Assembly: GCA_016218085.1 (NCBI GenBank)
Contig: JACREY010000012.1
Coordinates: forward strand, 124,001-188,000
Direction: 5' to 3'
Origin: Ignavibacteriota bacterium
Lineage (GTDB): Bacteria; Bacteroidota; Ignavibacteria; Tepidaquicellales; Tepidaquicellaceae
DNA length: 64,000 nt
In this document: positions 23,740-34,982 of the stretch, piece after piece
How the letters are laid out: each line of letters starts with the position of its first letter
How positions within the stretch are numbered: position 1 is the stretch's first letter
The notes under the pieces: generated by a model
Told to the model about the DNA's origin: nothing
Databases searched by the model: none
Seen by the model: only the letters and a program-made list of their open reading frames with translations
Program-made: the position numbers and the translations under genes

Positions 23740-24600
23740 AATTGAAAGCTCTTGCTCTTCTACTGACTACTAACTACTATCTACTAACTACTTTTAAATT
23801 GTGTTTTTGTGATTCGAAAAAAAGAATTGCTCTTATAAATAAAAAAACCTCAGTGCCCTTAGTGTCTTAATGGTTAGAGTTTTTGCTCCTGCTCTTCTAC
23901 TAACTACTATCTACTAACTACTTTTAAATTGTGTCTTTGTGATTAAAAAATAAGAAATGCTCTTGCTCTTATAAATAAAAAAACCTTAGTGCGCTAAATG
24001 TTCTCAGTGGTGAAAGTTCTTGCTCTTCTGCATAATGTAATGCTCTTATAAATAAAAAAACCTTAGTGCCCTAAATGTTCTCAGTGGTGAAAGTTCTTGC
24101 TCTTCTGCATAATGTAATGCTCTTATAAATAAAAAAACCTTAGTGCCCTTAGTGCCTTAGTGGTTAGAGTTTTTGCTCTTGCTCTTCTGCATAATGTAAT
24201 GCTCTTATAAATAAAAAAACCTTAGTGCGCTAAATGTTCTCAGTGGTGAAAGTTCTTGCTCTTCTGCATAATGTAATGCTCTTATAAATAAAAAAACCTT
24301 AGTGCCCTTAGTGCCTTAGTGGTTAGAGTTTTTGCTCCTGCTCTTCTACTAACTACTATCTACTAACTACTTTTAAATTGTGTCTTTGTGATTAAAAAAT
24401 AAGAAATGCTCTTGCTCTTAAAAATAAAAAAACCTTAGTGCCCTTAGTGCCTTAGTGGTTAGAGTTTTTGCTCTTGCTCTTCTGCATAATGTAATGCTCT
24501 TATAAATAAAAAAACCTTAGTGCGCTTAGTGCCTTAGTGGTGGAAGTTTTTACTCTTCTACTGACTACTAACTACTATCTACTAACTACTTTCAAAATTG
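23740..24600. repeat. composite intergenic repeat field
   Basis: Eight copies of a unit around ataaaaaaaccttagtg, each preceded by tgctcttataa-like words and followed by variants of cttagtgccttagtgg or taaatgttctcagtgg; unit spacing is mostly 75-85 bases, with TAGTTAGTAG-family blocks inserted. No coding frame or transposase. It fills the gap between the convergent 3' ends of the T9SS gene and the flippase gene. Confidence 0.9.
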
Positions 24601-27071: not shown

Positions 27072-27153
27072 TTTATAACCTTATAACCTTATAACCTTAT
27101 AACTTTATAACCTTATAACTTTATAACCTTATAACTTTATAACCTTATAACTA
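27072..27153. repeat. 8-base tandem array at a gene end
   Basis: Ten alternating copies of cttataac and tttataac run right up to, and contribute the TAG stop of, the zinc-ribbon gene on the minus strand. A related looser tract of ataaagttt words precedes it (27020-27058). Confidence 0.85.
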
Positions 27154-27762
27154 ATTTATTTCCAATCCCAGCACCGCATCTTTAAACCTGCCGTCCTGCT
27201 CTTTGTAAAACGGTATTCCGAGAATTTCGAATGAATTGAAGTCAATATTATACCTGAATGTCTTCATTGTATCGCTCTTTTCCGCTTCAAATGAAATCAG
27301 AAGGAATTCGCAGAGTTTTTTTGCATCTTCCTTTCCGTAGGCAAATCCCGTCAGCTTTGCGTTGTATTTCTGCGGTGAAGCAACCGGATTTTTCTGTGTA
27401 AAGACAGTTGCCAGGTTTTTCATAGCATCGAGGGTACAGTAAAATGCAGGAATGTAAAATGCTATTGTACCCGAAGTTTCGCTTCCCGAGCCTCCGAAGA
27501 GATTTTTCATAAAACCGCCCGCTGCAGTGCGCTCGAGAATCTGCACATTTGTCTTTATGAGCCAGAACGGCTTGTAAACAACTTCAGCATTTCCGGGAAT
27601 CGCTATCGATGAAAAATTAATCTCAATCGGCTGAAGTTCTCCGTGTACTATTTCAAAGCCGCTGCCGCAGCTGCCGCAGTATGTAATGCAGTCATTTATT
27701 TCCACCACCAGACCGCTCCCGCAGTTCTTGCACTTTATTGCTTCTAATTTAAAATCTGCCAT
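27151..27762 (-). CDS. Zinc-ribbon protein, last gene of SPFH/zinc-ribbon operon
   Basis: 203 residues. A zinc ribbon (Cys11-x2-Cys14 ... Cys29-x2-Cys32) precedes a domain with VVYKPFWLIKTNV, which matches the yxPxW segment of its two upstream paralogues. No transmembrane helix is evident, unlike those paralogues. Function unknown; the shared layout suggests the three proteins form one complex with the SPFH protein. It lies 24 bases downstream of the next zinc-ribbon gene. Confidence 0.75.
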   Translation of the reverse strand: MADFKLEAIKCKNCGSGLVVEINDCITYCGSCGSGFEIVHGELQPIEINFSSIAIPGNAEVVYKPFWLIKTNVQILERTAAGGFMKNLFGGSGSETSGTIAFYIPAFYCTLDAMKNLATVFTQKNPVASPQKYNAKLTGFAYGKEDAKKLCEFLLISFEAEKSDTMKTFRYNIDFNSFEILGIPFYKEQDGRFKDAVLGLEIN

Positions 27763-27786
27763 AAAATTAAAAATAAAAAATTTTAA

Positions 27787-28932
27787 TTAATCATCACTGC
27801 CGCTCAGCAGCGAACCTAAAATTGAACCTACAGCCACGGATGCAACCGCAGATTTTGCTATGCTTCCCGCCTCACTGTTCAGGAAGCCGGATACGCTTCC
27901 GGAATCCTTTGTCAGGCTGAAGCTTGACTTCTCGTCTTCAACAAGTCCTGTTCCGTCTTCAATCTCGCCGCCGTACCTGAACTTCTTCCAGCCCCATCTC
28001 ATCAGGAAAATCCCGATTACAAGACAGAATATATAAGCGGCAAATGCCCCCTTCGATGTCGAGTACCTGAAAATTTCAAAAATAGTTGCCATGAACATTC
28101 CCGCTGCTGTTGCAAATATTCCCGCAATTGCCCTGAACAGGTTGCTGCCCGGGGCTTTTCCGTAGCAGATGTTTCCGTCTTCTCCGTCGACAACTACCTG
28201 GTAAGTCCTGTTTGCAAAAACATATCTGATTATCCAAAGCGGATAATATACAATATTAATATCTTCTCTTACAAGATCCATATGCTCGAAAGAAACCCTG
28301 TCCAGTTTTGAGGCTTTTCTGGAGTCATCCACAAAAAAGGTTTTTGCTTTTCCGACTATTTCTTCTTCGGAGGAAATTATGTTGAATACCATTCCCTGCG
28401 CCTGAAGGTTTTCAAAATCAACGGGAAGAATTTCATCTCCCTGCAGATTGATTTTTCTGACGCCCAGTTCAGCAACATCGCAGGCAGGAAATGTGCTGTC
28501 GTATGTTCTCTGTATTTTAATTTCCTTGTCTTCATAAGTCGTACCGTTGCTTGTGCTTTTCTGTTCCTGTCCGAAAACCCATCCTACTACATCCGCCCTT
28601 ACACGCCAGTAAGGAATATATGTAAGGAATGCCTCGTCTATTTTTGAATTAGCCTGCAGTCCCTTTGCCTTTGCAAGTCCCGAACCGAGCCACTGGCGCG
28701 CTTTCTGGATTGCCGCATCGCGGTTGATTTTTTTCGGAACGTGGTATTTAATTGTACCGCTTTCGCCTTTTGCTACCAGCAGTGTACCGCAGTATTTGCA
28801 GTTGAAATTCCGAAGCCCCTCTTTCAAATCAAGTGCACCGCCGCACGAAGGACAGGTTATGCCCTTAACAACTTTCTCTTTTTTAAGCTTTATTGCCTGT
28901 GCAGTGGTTTGCGCTGAAGTATCCTGTTCCAT
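27787..28932 (-). CDS. YdjG-like zinc-ribbon membrane protein
   Basis: 381 residues. TFIIB-type zinc ribbon at Cys27-x2-Cys30 ... Cys45-x2-Cys48, then two repeats of a domain containing TYIPYWRVRADV and YYPLWIIRYVF, two membrane helices at about 265-310 (AIAGIFATAAGMF; AAYIFCLVIGIFLM) and a Gly/Ser-rich C-terminal tail. This is the architecture of Bacillus YdjG/YdjH-type proteins that recruit an SPFH partner to the membrane; homology is inferred from layout, not from a search. Same operon as the SPFH gene. Confidence 0.75.
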   Translation of the reverse strand: MEQDTSAQTTAQAIKLKKEKVVKGITCPSCGGALDLKEGLRNFNCKYCGTLLVAKGESGTIKYHVPKKINRDAAIQKARQWLGSGLAKAKGLQANSKIDEAFLTYIPYWRVRADVVGWVFGQEQKSTSNGTTYEDKEIKIQRTYDSTFPACDVAELGVRKINLQGDEILPVDFENLQAQGMVFNIISSEEEIVGKAKTFFVDDSRKASKLDRVSFEHMDLVREDINIVYYPLWIIRYVFANRTYQVVVDGEDGNICYGKAPGSNLFRAIAGIFATAAGMFMATIFEIFRYSTSKGAFAAYIFCLVIGIFLMRWGWKKFRYGGEIEDGTGLVEDEKSSFSLTKDSGSVSGFLNSEAGSIAKSAVASVAVGSILGSLLSGSDD

Positions 28933-28962
28933 AATTTATTATTTAAACTCTTTGAAATATTT

Positions 28963-29769
28963 TTAAACTTTTTTAGCAATAAAATATGCGATTATGATTA
29001 AAGGTATCGCCGCAAATCCGTAACCGAAAATCTTTATTCCCATATCGAATGCAAGAAAATGATTCATCGAAGCGCCCACAACCAGCGCCAGAAGGCTTAT
29101 CAGGAAAAACGCAACTATGCAAAGCGCAAACAGTATCCTGAACGGCGCTTCGCTCTTTGCGGGCCAAAGGTTTGCATACACCTTTCCCGATGATGACTCC
29201 ACAAGCGCCGCATATTGCTTTCCGCTGTAATCATAATGGAACTGGTAAAAGGGAATGTGTACAAGGTTTGAAGTTGCTATCGAATCCATATTTACCCCTG
29301 TTTCCTTCAGCCAGCTCTGTGCCGAATCGAACAGCACGTCCGGCGGGACAAATTCACTTTCGTTGAATTCTTTTTTATTATACACCTTCAGGTTTCCGGC
29401 CGGTATGTTTATCTTTTTAATTTCTGAAATTGAAGTGGAAGTTGCAGGCTGAAGGTAAATTGTCTCACCTGCCGACTTATCCGTCTTGAAATACCACATC
29501 GGAAAATAATAAAAAGATGACTGCGATATCTTTGCAAGCTTATCCAGGTCTTTCACCTGAAAATTTCCCGCCATCCACCTTCTGAGGTTTCCTTCCGCAT
29601 CTTCTTTTTTGAAATTGGAATTAATCACGAAATGGGATACGATTTTTCTCTTGTCTATGTATATTGCAGAGCCGCAGAAAACGCATTCCGTAAACTTCTC
29701 GTCTATCGGTACTTCGTTTTCGCCCGCACACTGCGGACATACTATCTTCGAAGAAGTTAATTCGTTCAT
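28963..29769 (-). CDS. YdjG/H-like zinc-ribbon membrane protein
   Basis: 268 residues: zinc ribbon (Cys11-x2-Cys14 ... Cys29-x2-Cys32), the shared FYYFPMWYFKTD and LVHIPFYQFHYDY segments, an AALVESSSGKVYANL strand, and two C-terminal hydrophobic helices (about 205-230 and 243-264). A shorter paralogue of the next gene in the operon. It probably places the ribbon on the cytoplasmic face as a docking site. 30 bases separate it from its neighbour. Confidence 0.75.
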   Translation of the reverse strand: MNELTSSKIVCPQCAGENEVPIDEKFTECVFCGSAIYIDKRKIVSHFVINSNFKKEDAEGNLRRWMAGNFQVKDLDKLAKISQSSFYYFPMWYFKTDKSAGETIYLQPATSTSISEIKKINIPAGNLKVYNKKEFNESEFVPPDVLFDSAQSWLKETGVNMDSIATSNLVHIPFYQFHYDYSGKQYAALVESSSGKVYANLWPAKSEAPFRILFALCIVAFFLISLLALVVGASMNHFLAFDMGIKIFGYGFAAIPLIIIAYFIAKKV

Positions 29770-29788
29770 ATCACTGATTATATTTTAA

Positions 29789-29878
29789 ACCGCAGATTAC
29801 CGCCGATTAAACAGATTAACACAGTTAATAAAATAAAAATCTGCGGAAATCAGTTACATCAGTTTTTATCTGTGGTGA
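29789..29878. repeat. CAGATTA/CTGCGG-type repeat
   Basis: Words such as ccgcagatta, cagattaaca and aaatctgcgg form an imperfect dyad between the SPFH gene and the downstream zinc-ribbon gene. It belongs to the same family as the tracts at 801-822 and 60008-60181. Confidence 0.55.
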
Positions 29879-29893
29879 ATTAATAAAATTAAT

Positions 29894-30889
29894 TTACATT
29901 TTTGCCAGCAATTCTTTCTTCTTTGTATCAAACTCGTCCTGCGTAATCAACCCTGCTTCTTTCATCTTTCCGAGCTTTTCTATTGCGCTCATTATCTCGT
30001 CAACTGACATCTTCTGCGCTGCGGGCTGCTGCTGCTGGTTCTGATTCATATTCTGCATTGTCTGCCCCATCATATTTGCCATCATCATTCCCGCGCCCAT
30101 TCCTGCGCCCATTCCCGCCATTCCGCCGCCGCCTTCGTTTTCAGCCGCCTTTTCGAGAGATTGCGCCGCTTTGAATTTCATGTATGCATCCAGGTTTCCG
30201 ACTGCACCCATCGAGCTTCTTTCGTTGATTTTTTCCTGTACTTCTTCCGGAGGAACAATGCCGGAAATTATCAGGTCTGTCAGCTCAATTCCCATTGAGT
30301 TGAAAAATTCCGTTACTTCCGATTTCACTCCCGATTCTATCTGAGGGTAAAACTGTCCTAATTCGAACATTGTTTTCAGGTTCTTTCCGAGTACAGTGTT
30401 CAGTCTCGATACAATTCCGTCCCTTAAATAATCTTCAATTTCGTTAGTGGTGAAAAGCCCCTGGGTCGAAACGATTTCCATCATGAACATTCTCGGGTCT
30501 TTGATTCTTATCGAGAATTTTCCCGATGCCCTTAACTGCACGAATGATAATTCCGAATCGCGGAAGTTAATAGGAGATTTTGTGCCCCACCTTAAATCGA
30601 TGAACTTCTTCATCGAAATGAAATATACCTGCGCCTGGAACGGTGATGTTCCGCCGAAGGGAAGGCTGATAAGCTTTGTCAGAAGCGGGATGTTCTCGGT
30701 TGTTAATGTGTGCCTACCCGCCTGGAATACATCCAATGCTTTTCCGTCCCTGTAAAAAATTGCACATTGCGAATCCTGCACGATTAACTGAGTGCCCATC
30801 CTGAATGCCGCCGAACCGTCCTGGGGCTCGCGGTGTACCATTGTTTTTCCTGTTTCGTCAAAAAATTGAATTACGTCTATGAGTGCCAT
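29894..30889 (-). CDS. SPFH-domain protein with C-terminal SHOCT domain (YdjI-like)
   Basis: 331 residues. An SPFH/Band-7 domain of the virion-core/YdjI type covers residues 30-235 (RDGKALDVFQAGRHTLTTENIP and LTDLIISGIVPPEEVQ), followed by a Gly/Met-rich linker (GMGAGMGAGMMM) and a SHOCT module at the end (LGKMKEAGLITQDEFDTKKKELL). There is no signal or membrane helix, so it must be recruited to the membrane, presumably by the zinc-ribbon proteins encoded downstream. In Bacillus the equivalent YdjI works with PspA in membrane stress. Confidence 0.88.
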   Translation of the reverse strand: MALIDVIQFFDETGKTMVHREPQDGSAAFRMGTQLIVQDSQCAIFYRDGKALDVFQAGRHTLTTENIPLLTKLISLPFGGTSPFQAQVYFISMKKFIDLRWGTKSPINFRDSELSFVQLRASGKFSIRIKDPRMFMMEIVSTQGLFTTNEIEDYLRDGIVSRLNTVLGKNLKTMFELGQFYPQIESGVKSEVTEFFNSMGIELTDLIISGIVPPEEVQEKINERSSMGAVGNLDAYMKFKAAQSLEKAAENEGGGGMAGMGAGMGAGMMMANMMGQTMQNMNQNQQQQPAAQKMSVDEIMSAIEKLGKMKEAGLITQDEFDTKKKELLAKM

Positions 30890-30943
30890 AATATTATATT
30901 TTTTAATTTAATTTTATTTTTAACTTCAGAAAGAAGTTTTTAA

Positions 30944-30977
30944 ATGCTGACTACTAACTACTGTCTACTGACTACAA
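30944..30977. repeat. TAGTCAGTAG-family repeat at a gene end
   Basis: Low-complexity ctgactactaactactgtc tract; on the minus strand it supplies the TAG of the helical protein gene. Confidence 0.65.
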
Positions 30978-31499
30978 AGCTCTTAAAGCCGCTTCTCTTT
31001 CGTCAAACTTGTTTATTAAAGCAGAAAGTGCATTCGATACTTTATCTTCTGCATCCTTGGTTTCCTGGTTTGCACCGCTAAGGCTCAGCAAGTTATCGAA
31101 CATTGCGCTGATTTCTTCAACACTGCCCAGTAATGATACGTCAAAATTGTAAATCTGTTCCAGCTTTTCATCCTTGATTTTCACTACATCGAATGCTCCG
31201 CTGTAACCCCTCGCCGCCGAACGGAATTTTGCTATTGCAGTGTCGTTCTTCTTTTCGATTTTTTCCATATCGCTTGCCTGGAAAAGCCTGCCGTTCTTCG
31301 AATAATTCGAAACCGTTTCCCTGATTTTGCTCCGGTTCTGCTCCAGTTTCAAGGCAAGTTGATTCCTGAGCTGTGTATCCAGTTCCCTGGAGTTGTCCCT
31401 GTTTACATAACCGTCGTAACCGGGTATGATTCTCTTTATCTTTTCGAGAAATGATTCTTTCGATTTTATGAAATCGAGTTTTGATTTTAAGTCGCTCAT
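30972..31499 (-). CDS. Small helical protein heading the SPFH operon
   Basis: 175 residues from the ATG at MSDLKSKLDF; a longer frame is less likely. It is highly charged and almost wholly helical by composition, with coiled-coil-like stretches (LRNQLALKLEQNRSKI and SNALSALINKFDEREA). I do not recognise the family. Its position at the head of the SPFH/zinc-ribbon genes is that of PspA in the Bacillus operon, but it is shorter and no PspA signature was seen, so any equivalence is only positional. Confidence 0.7.
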   Translation of the reverse strand: MSDLKSKLDFIKSKESFLEKIKRIIPGYDGYVNRDNSRELDTQLRNQLALKLEQNRSKIRETVSNYSKNGRLFQASDMEKIEKKNDTAIAKFRSAARGYSGAFDVVKIKDEKLEQIYNFDVSLLGSVEEISAMFDNLLSLSGANQETKDAEDKVSNALSALINKFDEREAALRAL

Positions 31500-31564
31500 T
31501 TTGTTTTTTTTAGTTTTATTGCCGTAATATAATAATACCGTTTTAAACAAACAAACATTAAAAA

Positions 31565-34171
31565 TCAGTTAATTGTATCTTTAAGTTTTTTCAGCAAGTT
31601 CAGTGCTTCTATGGGTGTGATATTGTCAAGGTTTACCTTGTTCAGCTCCTTGCGTATTTTATCGTCTTCGTTGATTTCAAAAAGGCTTATCTGGAATTCA
31701 TCATTCTTCTTCCTCCTTGCCTCTTTTGCCTCGAATGAATGCAGAATTTCCTTGGCCCTCTCCGTAACCGATTCGGGCAGTCCTGCCATCTGTGCCACCT
31801 GAATTCCGTAGCTGTGGTCTGCCGTTCCCTCTGTAATGGTTCTTAAGAAAAGCACTTTGTCTCCGTATTCCCTGACTTCCACCCTGTAATTCTTAATCCT
31901 GTCATAAAGGGTTGCAAGAGCGTTTAATTCGTGGTAGTGAGTTGCAAAAAGCGTCTTTGCTCTTATCTCCGGATTTTCGTGAAGGTATTCCGTGATTGCC
32001 CAGGCAATCGAAATTCCGTCATACGTGCTCGTGCCTCTTCCTATTTCATCCAGCAAAATCAAACTCTTCGATGTAGCATTGTTCATTATGTTTGCCGCTT
32101 CGTGCATTTCCACGAGGAATGTACTTTCGCCTTTTGCTATGTTATCCGATGCTCCGACTCTCGTAAAAATCTTATCAACAATTCCTATCTTCGCCGACTC
32201 CGCAGGTACAAAACATCCAATCTGTGCAAGCAGAACTATCAGTCCCGTCTGCCTTAAGTAGCTTGATTTTCCGCTCATATTCGGACCTGTCAGGATTATT
32301 ATCTGGTTGTCGCTAGTGTCCAGCACGGAATCGTTTGCAATGTATTTCTCTCCCGCCGGAAGCAGCCTCTCTATCACCGGATGCCTTCCTTTTATAATCT
32401 CAATCCTGTCTGTTTCGTCTATATCGGGCATTATGTAATTATATGCCTCTGAAATTTCCGCGAAGCTTATCAGCGAATCTATAGTAGCTATCATCATTGC
32501 ATTCTTTTGTATCTCATCAGTGAATTGTAAAATGAAATTTCTCAGTTCCGTAAAAATCTTATTCTCTATTACGTTTATTTTCTCTTCGGCATTGAAAATT
32601 TTGTCCTCGTAAATTTTCAGTTCCTCAGTTATGAATCTTTCGTTGTTTACAAGCGTCTGCTTTCTGACATAATCCGCAGGAGCCTTGTCCAGATTGGCTT
32701 TCGTGATTTCTATATAATATCCGAATACCTTGTTAAAGTCCACCTTCAGCGAGCTTATTCCCGTCCGCTTCCTTTCCTTGCTCTGGAAATTCTCTATCCA
32801 GGTTTTCCCGTTTATGTGAATATCCTTTATTTCGTCGAGTTCTTTATCGCACCCTTTGTTAATAATTCCGTATGAATCCGTTCCCGCCAGGTAATTATCG
32901 TTTATGATTCTTTCTATCTCGTTTATAAGCGCGGGAATGTCAACGAGATTTTCTTTTAAGCTCTTTATCGAAGAAGAAGTGAAATTTTCCAGCGTCTTTT
33001 TTATTCCGGAAATTTTCCTCTGCGAAATCTTCAGCTGTACTATGTCTCTCGGAACTGCCTTGCCTGTGGCAACTTTCGATAAAAGTCTCTCCAGGTCCGC
33101 TATTGATTTTAAATCCTCTGTCAGGCTTTTTCTAAGATTTTTGTTTTCAAAAAATTCTCTCACCGCATCCAGCCTTTTCAGAATATTTTCCTTCTTTTTC
33201 AGCGGTCTCGAAATCCATTTCTTCATGAGCCTTCCACCCATTGAGGTTTCGGTACGGTCCAAAATTGAAATCAGCGTTCCCTCTCTTCCGCCTTCATTTA
33301 TGGAAGCGGTAATTTCGAGATTCCTTTTTGTAGAAGGGTCGAGTATTATATAATCCGTGTAATCGTAATTGTAAATTTTCTTGATGTGAGATAACTTGTT
33401 TTTCTGAGTTTCGTTCAGGTAATTCATTACGCACCCTGCCGCTATTATTCCCTCGTGCATATCATCTATCCCGAATCCCTTGAGCGATTGCGTTCCGAAC
33501 TGGTTTGTCAGCAGTTCACGAGCATAGTCCAGATTAAAAACCCATTCGTCAACTTTTGTGAAAATTTGTTTTGGCTTATCGCTTCCAAATGTATCTTCGA
33601 TTTCTATATTCAGTGCCTTGTAAATTTTCTCTTTCTCTCTTTTTGAAATCAGGATTTCCGTAGGGTTAATTATGTCTATCTGTCCTGCAAGCTGTTTGAT
33701 GTGAATTTCCGAAGTTGCAAATTCTCCCGTAGATACATCGCAGAAAGAGAAACCGCATCTTTCGTCTCTTATATAAATTGCAGCAAGAAAATTATTAGAT
33801 TTGTGGCTGAGAAGTTTATCCGAAAAAGTCGCGCCGGGAGTTACCACTTCCACCACGTCACGCTTTACTATTCCCTTTGCAAACTTCGGGTCCTCCAGCT
33901 GTTCGCATACCGCAACCCTGTAACCTGCTTTTACAAGTTTAGGCAGGTAATTATCCAGTGCATGATGAGGAAATCCGGCAAGCGGCACCTCTGAAGCCGC
34001 GCCGTTACTGCGTTTCGTGAGCGTTATGCCGAGCACCTTCGATGTTGTTATGGCATCTTCTTCAAAAGTCTCAAAGAAATCTCCCATCCTGAAAAGCAGA
34101 AGCATATCGGGATACTTTTCCTTCACCTTTCTGTATTGCCTCATCAAAGGAGTCTCGCTCTTAGTACTCAC
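31565..34171 (-). CDS. mutS: DNA mismatch repair protein MutS
   Basis: 868 residues, standard length for MutS, which binds mismatches and starts repair. The GTG start is followed by the mismatch-reading motif FRMGDFFETF (Phe-x-Glu). Walker A is GPNMSGKSSYLRQT, Walker B LILLDEIGRGTSTYDG, and FATHYHEL completes the ATPase site; the C-terminal tail is the usual dimerisation helix pair. mutL is not in the window. The SPFH operon follows on the same strand after 65 bases. Confidence 0.97.
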   Translation of the reverse strand: MSTKSETPLMRQYRKVKEKYPDMLLLFRMGDFFETFEEDAITTSKVLGITLTKRSNGAASEVPLAGFPHHALDNYLPKLVKAGYRVAVCEQLEDPKFAKGIVKRDVVEVVTPGATFSDKLLSHKSNNFLAAIYIRDERCGFSFCDVSTGEFATSEIHIKQLAGQIDIINPTEILISKREKEKIYKALNIEIEDTFGSDKPKQIFTKVDEWVFNLDYARELLTNQFGTQSLKGFGIDDMHEGIIAAGCVMNYLNETQKNKLSHIKKIYNYDYTDYIILDPSTKRNLEITASINEGGREGTLISILDRTETSMGGRLMKKWISRPLKKKENILKRLDAVREFFENKNLRKSLTEDLKSIADLERLLSKVATGKAVPRDIVQLKISQRKISGIKKTLENFTSSSIKSLKENLVDIPALINEIERIINDNYLAGTDSYGIINKGCDKELDEIKDIHINGKTWIENFQSKERKRTGISSLKVDFNKVFGYYIEITKANLDKAPADYVRKQTLVNNERFITEELKIYEDKIFNAEEKINVIENKIFTELRNFILQFTDEIQKNAMMIATIDSLISFAEISEAYNYIMPDIDETDRIEIIKGRHPVIERLLPAGEKYIANDSVLDTSDNQIIILTGPNMSGKSSYLRQTGLIVLLAQIGCFVPAESAKIGIVDKIFTRVGASDNIAKGESTFLVEMHEAANIMNNATSKSLILLDEIGRGTSTYDGISIAWAITEYLHENPEIRAKTLFATHYHELNALATLYDRIKNYRVEVREYGDKVLFLRTITEGTADHSYGIQVAQMAGLPESVTERAKEILHSFEAKEARRKKNDEFQISLFEINEDDKIRKELNKVNLDNITPIEALNLLKKLKDTIN

Positions 34172-34229: not shown

Positions 34230-34375
34230 GATTGTAAATAGTAAATTGTAAAAAGTAAAATGTTATTGTTCGATTATTCTTTCTGCTCTTCCCATTTACA
34301 ATTTACGTTTTTCGTTCTCTTATTAACTCCTTAACTTCCAAAAATCAGCGCAATCAGCGAAATCAGTGATTTAAA
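34230..34375. repeat. GTAAATTGTAAA and ATCAGCG-type repeats 3' of the sigma factor gene
   Basis: Words gtaaatagtaaattgtaaa and acaatttacg form a loose dyad, followed by aatcagcgcaatcagcgaaa that starts right at the sigma gene stop codon. Both families occur elsewhere at 3' gene ends. Confidence 0.65.
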
Positions 34376-34982
34376 ACGTCCCCAGTCTGTCTTTTAAATA
34401 CTTATTCAGCAGCTCCCGTCCCCTGAATATATGCGCCTTCACCGTGCCAAGCGGAAGTTTCAGCTTCTTGGCAATCTCTTCATAATCCTTCTCATCCCTG
34501 TGCCTTAGGAGTATTACTGATTTGTACTTGCTCGGCAGGTTCTCTATTGCCTCTTCGAGGATTTTTTTCCGCTCACTTTCCATCAGGTTCTTATCGGGAG
34601 TTCTATCGCTGTCGGGAATCTCAAATTGGTAATCATCATCCTCTCCGCCAAGTTCCTTGTCTATGGAAAAAGTATTCAGCTTTTTCTTTCTCAGGTAATC
34701 TATGCAGTTATTCGTTGCAATTTTAAAAAGCCACGTGGAAAAAGAAAACTGCTTGTCGAACTTATCCAGCGAATTAAATGCCTTGATAAATGCCTCCTGT
34801 GTAAGGTCCTCCACATCCTCCTTATTCCTTATCATTCTGAATATGAGATTATAAATCAACTGTCTGTATTTAGTCATAAGCCGCCGGTAAGCTTCCTGCT
34901 TTCCCGCTATTGCATCATCTATAAGGATGATATCCTCGGCTTTGGAATCTTTCTTCGTATTTTCGCTAACCCCGTTGGACAT
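34371..34982 (-). CDS. ECF-type RNA polymerase sigma factor
   Basis: 203-residue sigma-70 family factor with regions 2 and 4 only. Region 2 shows YNLIFRMIRNKEDVEDLTQE and the FSTWLFKIATNNCIDYLRKK core; region 4 ends with the helix-turn-helix YEEIAKKLKLPLGTVKAHIFRG. It is of the general RpoE/SigW-like group. No anti-sigma gene adjoins, and its regulon cannot be deduced. Confidence 0.93.
   Translation of the reverse strand: MSNGVSENTKKDSKAEDIILIDDAIAGKQEAYRRLMTKYRQLIYNLIFRMIRNKEDVEDLTQEAFIKAFNSLDKFDKQFSFSTWLFKIATNNCIDYLRKKKLNTFSIDKELGGEDDDYQFEIPDSDRTPDKNLMESERKKILEEAIENLPSKYKSVILLRHRDEKDYEEIAKKLKLPLGTVKAHIFRGRELLNKYLKDRLGTF

Follow-up and report, generated by a model that had tools for sequence, protein, structure and literature searches.

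An SPFH/YdjG-type membrane module without PspA in Ignavibacteria and the little-known helical protein inherited with it

We found that a five-gene operon of an Ignavibacteriota bacterium (assembly GCA_016218085.1; GTDB lineage Bacteroidota; Ignavibacteria; Tepidaquicellales; Tepidaquicellaceae) is a variant of the SPFH/YdjG-type membrane module that lacks PspA, and that a little-known helical protein is tied to it by inheritance. The operon lies on the minus strand at 27151-31499 of the window, by which we mean the whole 64,000-nucleotide stretch that was analysed (contig JACREY010000012.1, positions 124,001-188,000), and its five proteins are named here, in transcription order, LEAD, SPFH, ZR1, ZR2 and ZR3. 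An earlier note on this DNA had described five same-direction genes in this interval, and all five open reading frames are present there. The genes themselves are a matter of observation, as are the homologies of SPFH, ZR1 and ZR2, the conserved linkage, the joint loss of the set and the absence of PspA. The genes are as follows.

LEAD, 30972..31499, minus strand: 175 residues, all-helical, first gene of the operon, with a conserved IPGYDGYVNRDNSRELDT motif
SPFH, 29894..30889, minus strand: 331 residues, Band_7_1 (YdjI-type) with a C-terminal SHOCT, without a membrane segment
ZR1, 28963..29769, minus strand: 268 residues, zinc ribbon, paired yPxW-type units and a C-terminal membrane pair
ZR2, 27787..28932, minus strand: 381 residues, zinc ribbon, two helix/beta units with yPxW and a C-terminal membrane pair
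ZR3, 27151..27762, minus strand: 203 residues, soluble, with a zinc ribbon and YKPFW

Upon examining related genomes, we observe that the SPFH-ZR1-ZR2-ZR3 block recurs in both sampled families of the order and in many genera; because the same gene order returns in so many genera, the neighbourhood is far beyond chance, and the conserved neighbourhood on which the earlier note depended is thus kept across one order of Ignavibacteria. LEAD is directly upstream of the block in most of family f1, and in family f2 it is unlinked and encoded elsewhere in the genome, yet retained. An order-wide search of 44 genomes recovered LEAD in 37 and ZR2 in 36, with both in 35, neither in 6 and discordant states in 3 (Fisher p = 3e-5 for co-occurrence, without correction for relatedness), and the 6 genomes that lack LEAD and ZR2 also lack SPFH and ZR1. 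Since the genomes are related, better evidence than this p-value comes from genera g13 and g16, in each of which some species have the whole set and others lack it entirely. One of the discordant genomes (G279) carries ZR2 together with a 109-residue fragment of ZR1, as expected if the contig ends there, and another (G276) is 64% complete; both cases probably reflect assembly gaps. The five genes could also be neighbours by history alone, for instance as hitch-hikers of mutS, with no common function, and mutS is indeed directly upstream in the window and in some relatives. However, the block persists without mutS alongside, LEAD persists where it is unlinked, and the set has been lost whole in several genera; this joint loss contradicts a purely historical neighbourhood, which we regard as hardly credible. 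The earlier placement of the operon after mutS is accordingly true of the window, but the adjacency is found in only some of its relatives.

The second gene matches Band_7_1 (PF13421, E=7e-56) and SHOCT (E=1e-8, at 302-328) in Pfam, which bears out its earlier reading as an SPFH-SHOCT protein, and its hydropathy profile contains no hydrophobic membrane segment. In the closest relative (G001) the SPFH gene is split into two overlapping open reading frames (L014:3502-4444), through a frameshift or a sequence error. ZR1, ZR2 and ZR3 each hold a zinc ribbon with an intact CxxC...CxxC that is invariant among orthologues, and Pfam returned no firm family for these three proteins or for LEAD. Segments of the yPxW type are found in all three, namely FYYFPMW in ZR1 (86-92), IPYW (106-109) and YYPLW (229-233) in ZR2, and YKPFW in ZR3 (63-67). 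Hydropathy places membrane pairs at the C-termini of ZR1 (206-241, 243-266) and ZR2 (268-288, 292-315) and no membrane segment in ZR3, in agreement with the earlier description of two zinc-ribbon proteins with a C-terminal membrane pair and one soluble.

ZR1 and ZR2 are homologous to each other (192 columns, E=3e-13). A profile built from SPFH-linked zinc-ribbon proteins shares 223 aligned columns with ZR2 (E=1e-19), among them the C-terminal PxW...Y...VNGQTGKVxGxxP, and 94 with ZR1 (E=2e-12), which cover the ribbon and the first yPxW unit. Because the relatives in this profile, which include the Enterococcus SPFH-zinc ribbon-TPM cluster described below, align with both, we assign ZR1 and ZR2 to the YdjG-type partner family of SPFH proteins; of the three zinc-ribbon proteins ZR2 is the closest to that partner. 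The alignment of ZR3 to the same profile is short (78 columns, E=2.5e-5, probability 75%), and its kinship to ZR1, ZR2 and the YdjG-type family is suggestive only. The earlier proposal of a zinc-ribbon set expanded to three proteins that share a yxPxW segment thus holds for the segments and for ZR1 and ZR2 as clear members, with ZR3 as a suggestive one. ZR3 was also considered as a DUF4178 protein and rejected, the alignment being weak and confined to the ribbon. In a phylum-wide sample of 247 genomes only distant relatives of the zinc-ribbon proteins were found outside the order, and viral scans with this family gave no matches.

Next, we investigated PspA and the identity of LEAD. PspA (PF04012) was found in 0 of 30 genomes, relatives included, by a search that was positive in 9 of 14 control genomes, and PF04012 was not found among the five operon proteins either. 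A PspA hidden elsewhere in the genome is ruled out by this search, and the whole sampled lineage, not the operon alone, is without recognisable PspA, so that the absence reported in the earlier note extends from the operon to the genome and its relatives. Orthologues of LEAD begin at the ATG at 31499 and do not share the longer reading from the TTG at 31550. The window protein has no Pfam match at E<=1, and PF04012 is absent among the families listed for LEAD orthologues (25 of 52 listed). All 30 orthologues match NCBIfam NF047596 (LIMLP_15305, Leptospira; best E=2.5e-11), whose length is the same (175) and whose alignment is near full-length, although the window LEAD scores 28.5 bits, far under the curated cut-off of 210. 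LEAD is, as judged from this profile, a distant relative of this uncharacterised Leptospira family, which amends its earlier label of an unrecognised helical protein and leaves its helical nature standing. In the literature no described context was found for the LEAD / LIMLP_15305 family, Leptospira included, and the family now gains a testable one. Apart from the two genomes of this order, LEAD was found in none of the 247 genomes of the phylum-wide sample; none was found on plasmids or on viral contigs, and a contig scan with narrow patterns returned only records labelled Ignavibacteria or related Bacteroidetes/Chlorobi metagenome-assembled genomes.

The structure model of LEAD, built from 30 sequences, has a mean predicted local distance difference test score (pLDDT) of 82 and four main helices (37-68, 72-97, 110-142 and 148-174). 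Confidence is low for residues 1-40, the region in which the best conserved motif lies and in which ESFLEKIKRII (15-25) is strongly amphipathic (moment 0.79); hydropathy gives no membrane segment. Foldseek returned nothing below E=0.001, the best structural match being chlamydial IncA (Foldseek E=0.03; Z 13.4), no stronger than helical bundles can be expected to give. A sequence relationship of LEAD to PspA was rejected for want of any support; a shared fold may still exist, the matches listed by Foldseek and VIA-align being generic helical bundles with PspA not among them. An anti-phage role was set aside, since all that spoke for it was a weak match to Cas11a (E=0.007), which we attribute to chance. 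LEAD could nevertheless be a true functional replacement of PspA, binding membrane, self-assembling and stabilising it via the amphipathic N-terminus: it is first in its operon, like pspA in Bacillus subtilis, it has been lost together with the core, and its lineage has no PspA. We consider this quite improbable, as LEAD has no sequence relation to PspA, its structural matches are generic, and its model consists of four short helices and not of a long hairpin, with the relevant N-terminal 40 residues at low confidence. The statement that LEAD stands in the place of PspA is therefore right as to position, as the first gene, and not supported as to function, the fold matches being generic.

YdjI, the soluble SPFH protein of B. 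subtilis, reaches the membrane only with the membrane proteins YdjG and YdjH, and PspA foci require all three of them (PMC8581546); YdjI, YdjG and YdjH are composed of SPFH, zinc ribbon and TPM, respectively (PMC11237479). We hold it moderately probable that the operon encodes a membrane platform like that of YdjI and YdjG, joined by a helical partner particular to this lineage and likely serving membrane integrity. ZR1 and ZR2 would be YdjG-type membrane adaptors, their zinc ribbon and beta units lying in the cytosol and their C-terminus anchored in the membrane, and because of their homology to the YdjG-type partner they should anchor the soluble SPFH oligomer and hold it at the inner membrane, with ZR3 possibly serving this set as a soluble accessory. 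LEAD, which would be cytosolic and has four main helices in the model, is by its position and joint inheritance the likeliest cytosolic partner, and the platform may recruit or organise it as YdjG/YdjH and YdjI bring PspA to stressed membrane in B. subtilis. As the lineage is free of PspA, the role would be to preserve the integrity of the membrane, or of complexes within it, when the envelope is stressed, which we infer by analogy with the Bacillus case.

Several observations weigh against this explanation. LEAD is encoded apart from the core in family f2, and in the third discordant genome (G027, 94% complete) LEAD seems to be retained although SPFH, ZR1 and ZR2 are missing. The C-terminus of SPFH is a SHOCT where B. 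subtilis YdjI has a zinc ribbon. A YdjH counterpart (TPM, PF04536) was not found among the five operon proteins, to which that search was confined, so that the proposed match of the zinc-ribbon proteins to YdjG and YdjH stands for the homology of ZR1 and ZR2 to the YdjG-type partner and falls for YdjH. Moreover, the YdjG assignment runs through the Enterococcus locus by synteny and not through the sequence of B. subtilis YdjG, the structure model of ZR2 is poor (mean pLDDT 55) and unfit for a fold search, and the physical complex, the recruitment of LEAD and the stress role are all reached indirectly.

When extending the comparison beyond the order, in a survey of a few plasmids that is not a count of partners, we observe that distant ZR2 relatives adjoin an SPFH gene in one genome of Bacteroidota (G124, L105) and on plasmids of Vibrio, Comamonas, Paracoccus, Tsukamurella and Enterococcus. 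The Enterococcus cluster has the order SPFH - zinc ribbon - TPM (TPM E=8e-20) and is taken as YdjI/YdjG/YdjH-like because its composition is the same as that reported in PMC11237479. On two Rhodobacterales plasmids the SPFH-zinc-ribbon pair follows telA (TelA E=1e-105 and 1e-106), and on the Vibrio and Comamonas plasmids the core is apparently without an extra partner. TelA and DUF2927 genes stand directly upstream of the pair at L111:2762-7188 and L115:1545-6263 (Pseudorhodobacter and Paracoccus plasmids), and on a Vibrio coralliilyticus plasmid (L102:2839-8900) the pair lies near a TIR-domain gene and a WD-repeat protein, a region that could be a defence or stress island.

These pairings, with TelA and DUF2927 in Rhodobacterales, with TPM in Enterococcus and apparently with nothing in Vibrio and Comamonas, would suit a core of general use that chaperones or helps to assemble particular membrane protein complexes, with LEAD as a regulator or client adaptor and envelope stress beside the point, and SPFH proteins have been proposed as chaperones for complexes (PMC11237479, PMC8581546). 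We find this somewhat unlikely, since the best studied member works with PspA on membrane stress, and telA and an xpaC-like gene of Lactococcus lactis are induced in the cell-envelope response (PMC3139573), both of which point to stress. On a bolder reading, which we rate as unlikely, the SPFH-zinc-ribbon platform would be a membrane module of general use whose helical effector can be swapped, being PspA in Bacilli, TelA in Rhodobacterales and LEAD in Ignavibacteria, and LEAD would be a membrane-repair effector with an origin separate from that of the ESCRT-III fold. A core whose helical partner can change in this way would account for the PspA, TelA and LEAD contexts together. Descriptions of the phage-shock response put PspA at its centre and give the SPFH and zinc-ribbon proteins an accessory part. 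Here a lineage has kept the platform, has dropped PspA and passes on another helical protein along with the platform, which suggests that the conserved centre may be the platform and that it is the effector that can be exchanged.

Two further genes lie upstream of the operon.

mutS, 31565..34171, minus strand: neighbour here and in some relatives, not counted as a member of the system
ECF (extracytoplasmic function)-type RNA polymerase sigma factor, 34371..34982, minus strand: adjoins mutS, translation read by eye

The gene order sigma-mutS-LEAD recurs in several relatives, and the sigma factor is a possible, putative regulator. In family f2 (L027-L038) a conserved TGAAACA-N17-TTCTATAATTG site lies upstream of SPFH with a variable spacer; its left half, TGAAACA, is identical to the -35 element of sigma-W promoters in B. 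subtilis. Of the 10 f2 genomes searched, 9 gave one close match each, and a regulon sharing this site was rejected, as at most one close match per genome leaves no shared regulon shown. Upstream of LEAD in family f1 the site was not seen. In many members of the f2 loci L045-L057, a conserved TTTG-N19-TATTTTTG stands shortly upstream of the unlinked LEAD and resembles the Bacteroidota housekeeping promoter. Within the window, a tandem array of an 8-base unit (TATAACCT / TATAACTT) occupies 27074-27151 and ends at the ZR3 stop; a 22-base pattern has 8 overlapping matches in it, where shuffles expect none. A dispersed intergenic repeat, [CT]AGTAGA[CT]AGTAGTTAGTAGTCAG, occurs at 23763-23786, 24561-24584 and 30947-30970, the last copy sitting between LEAD and SPFH, and an inverted repeat, CCGCAGATT ... 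AATCTGCGG, was read directly from the sequence at 29790-29846, between SPFH and ZR1.

Finally, the operon can be set beside three known arrangements. The Novosphingobium cluster of SPFH-SHOCT with DUF4178, DUF350 and spermidine synthase, a related context of which is reported in PMC11237479, likewise has an SPFH-SHOCT protein beside zinc-ribbon-bearing proteins, whereas its DUF4178 family is linked to ZR3 only weakly and through the ribbon, and its polyamine genes are absent from the operon. In the SPFH-zinc ribbon(-TPM) clusters of the Enterococcus, Vibrio, Comamonas, Paracoccus and Tsukamurella plasmids and of G124, homologous SPFH and zinc-ribbon genes adjoin as they do here, but there a single zinc-ribbon protein bears two ribbons and one membrane segment, the extra partners are others or none (TelA in Rhodobacterales), and LEAD is absent. 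Compared with pspA-ydjGHI of B. subtilis (PMC8581546, PMC9239133, PMC11237479), PspA is absent and LEAD is in its position, the five proteins include no TPM protein (YdjH), the zinc-ribbon set has grown to two clear members and one possible, and SPFH has a SHOCT where the B. subtilis SPFH protein has a C-terminal zinc finger, whereas the two systems share a soluble YdjI-type SPFH protein, a zinc-ribbon membrane protein of YdjG type and a helical protein as first gene.

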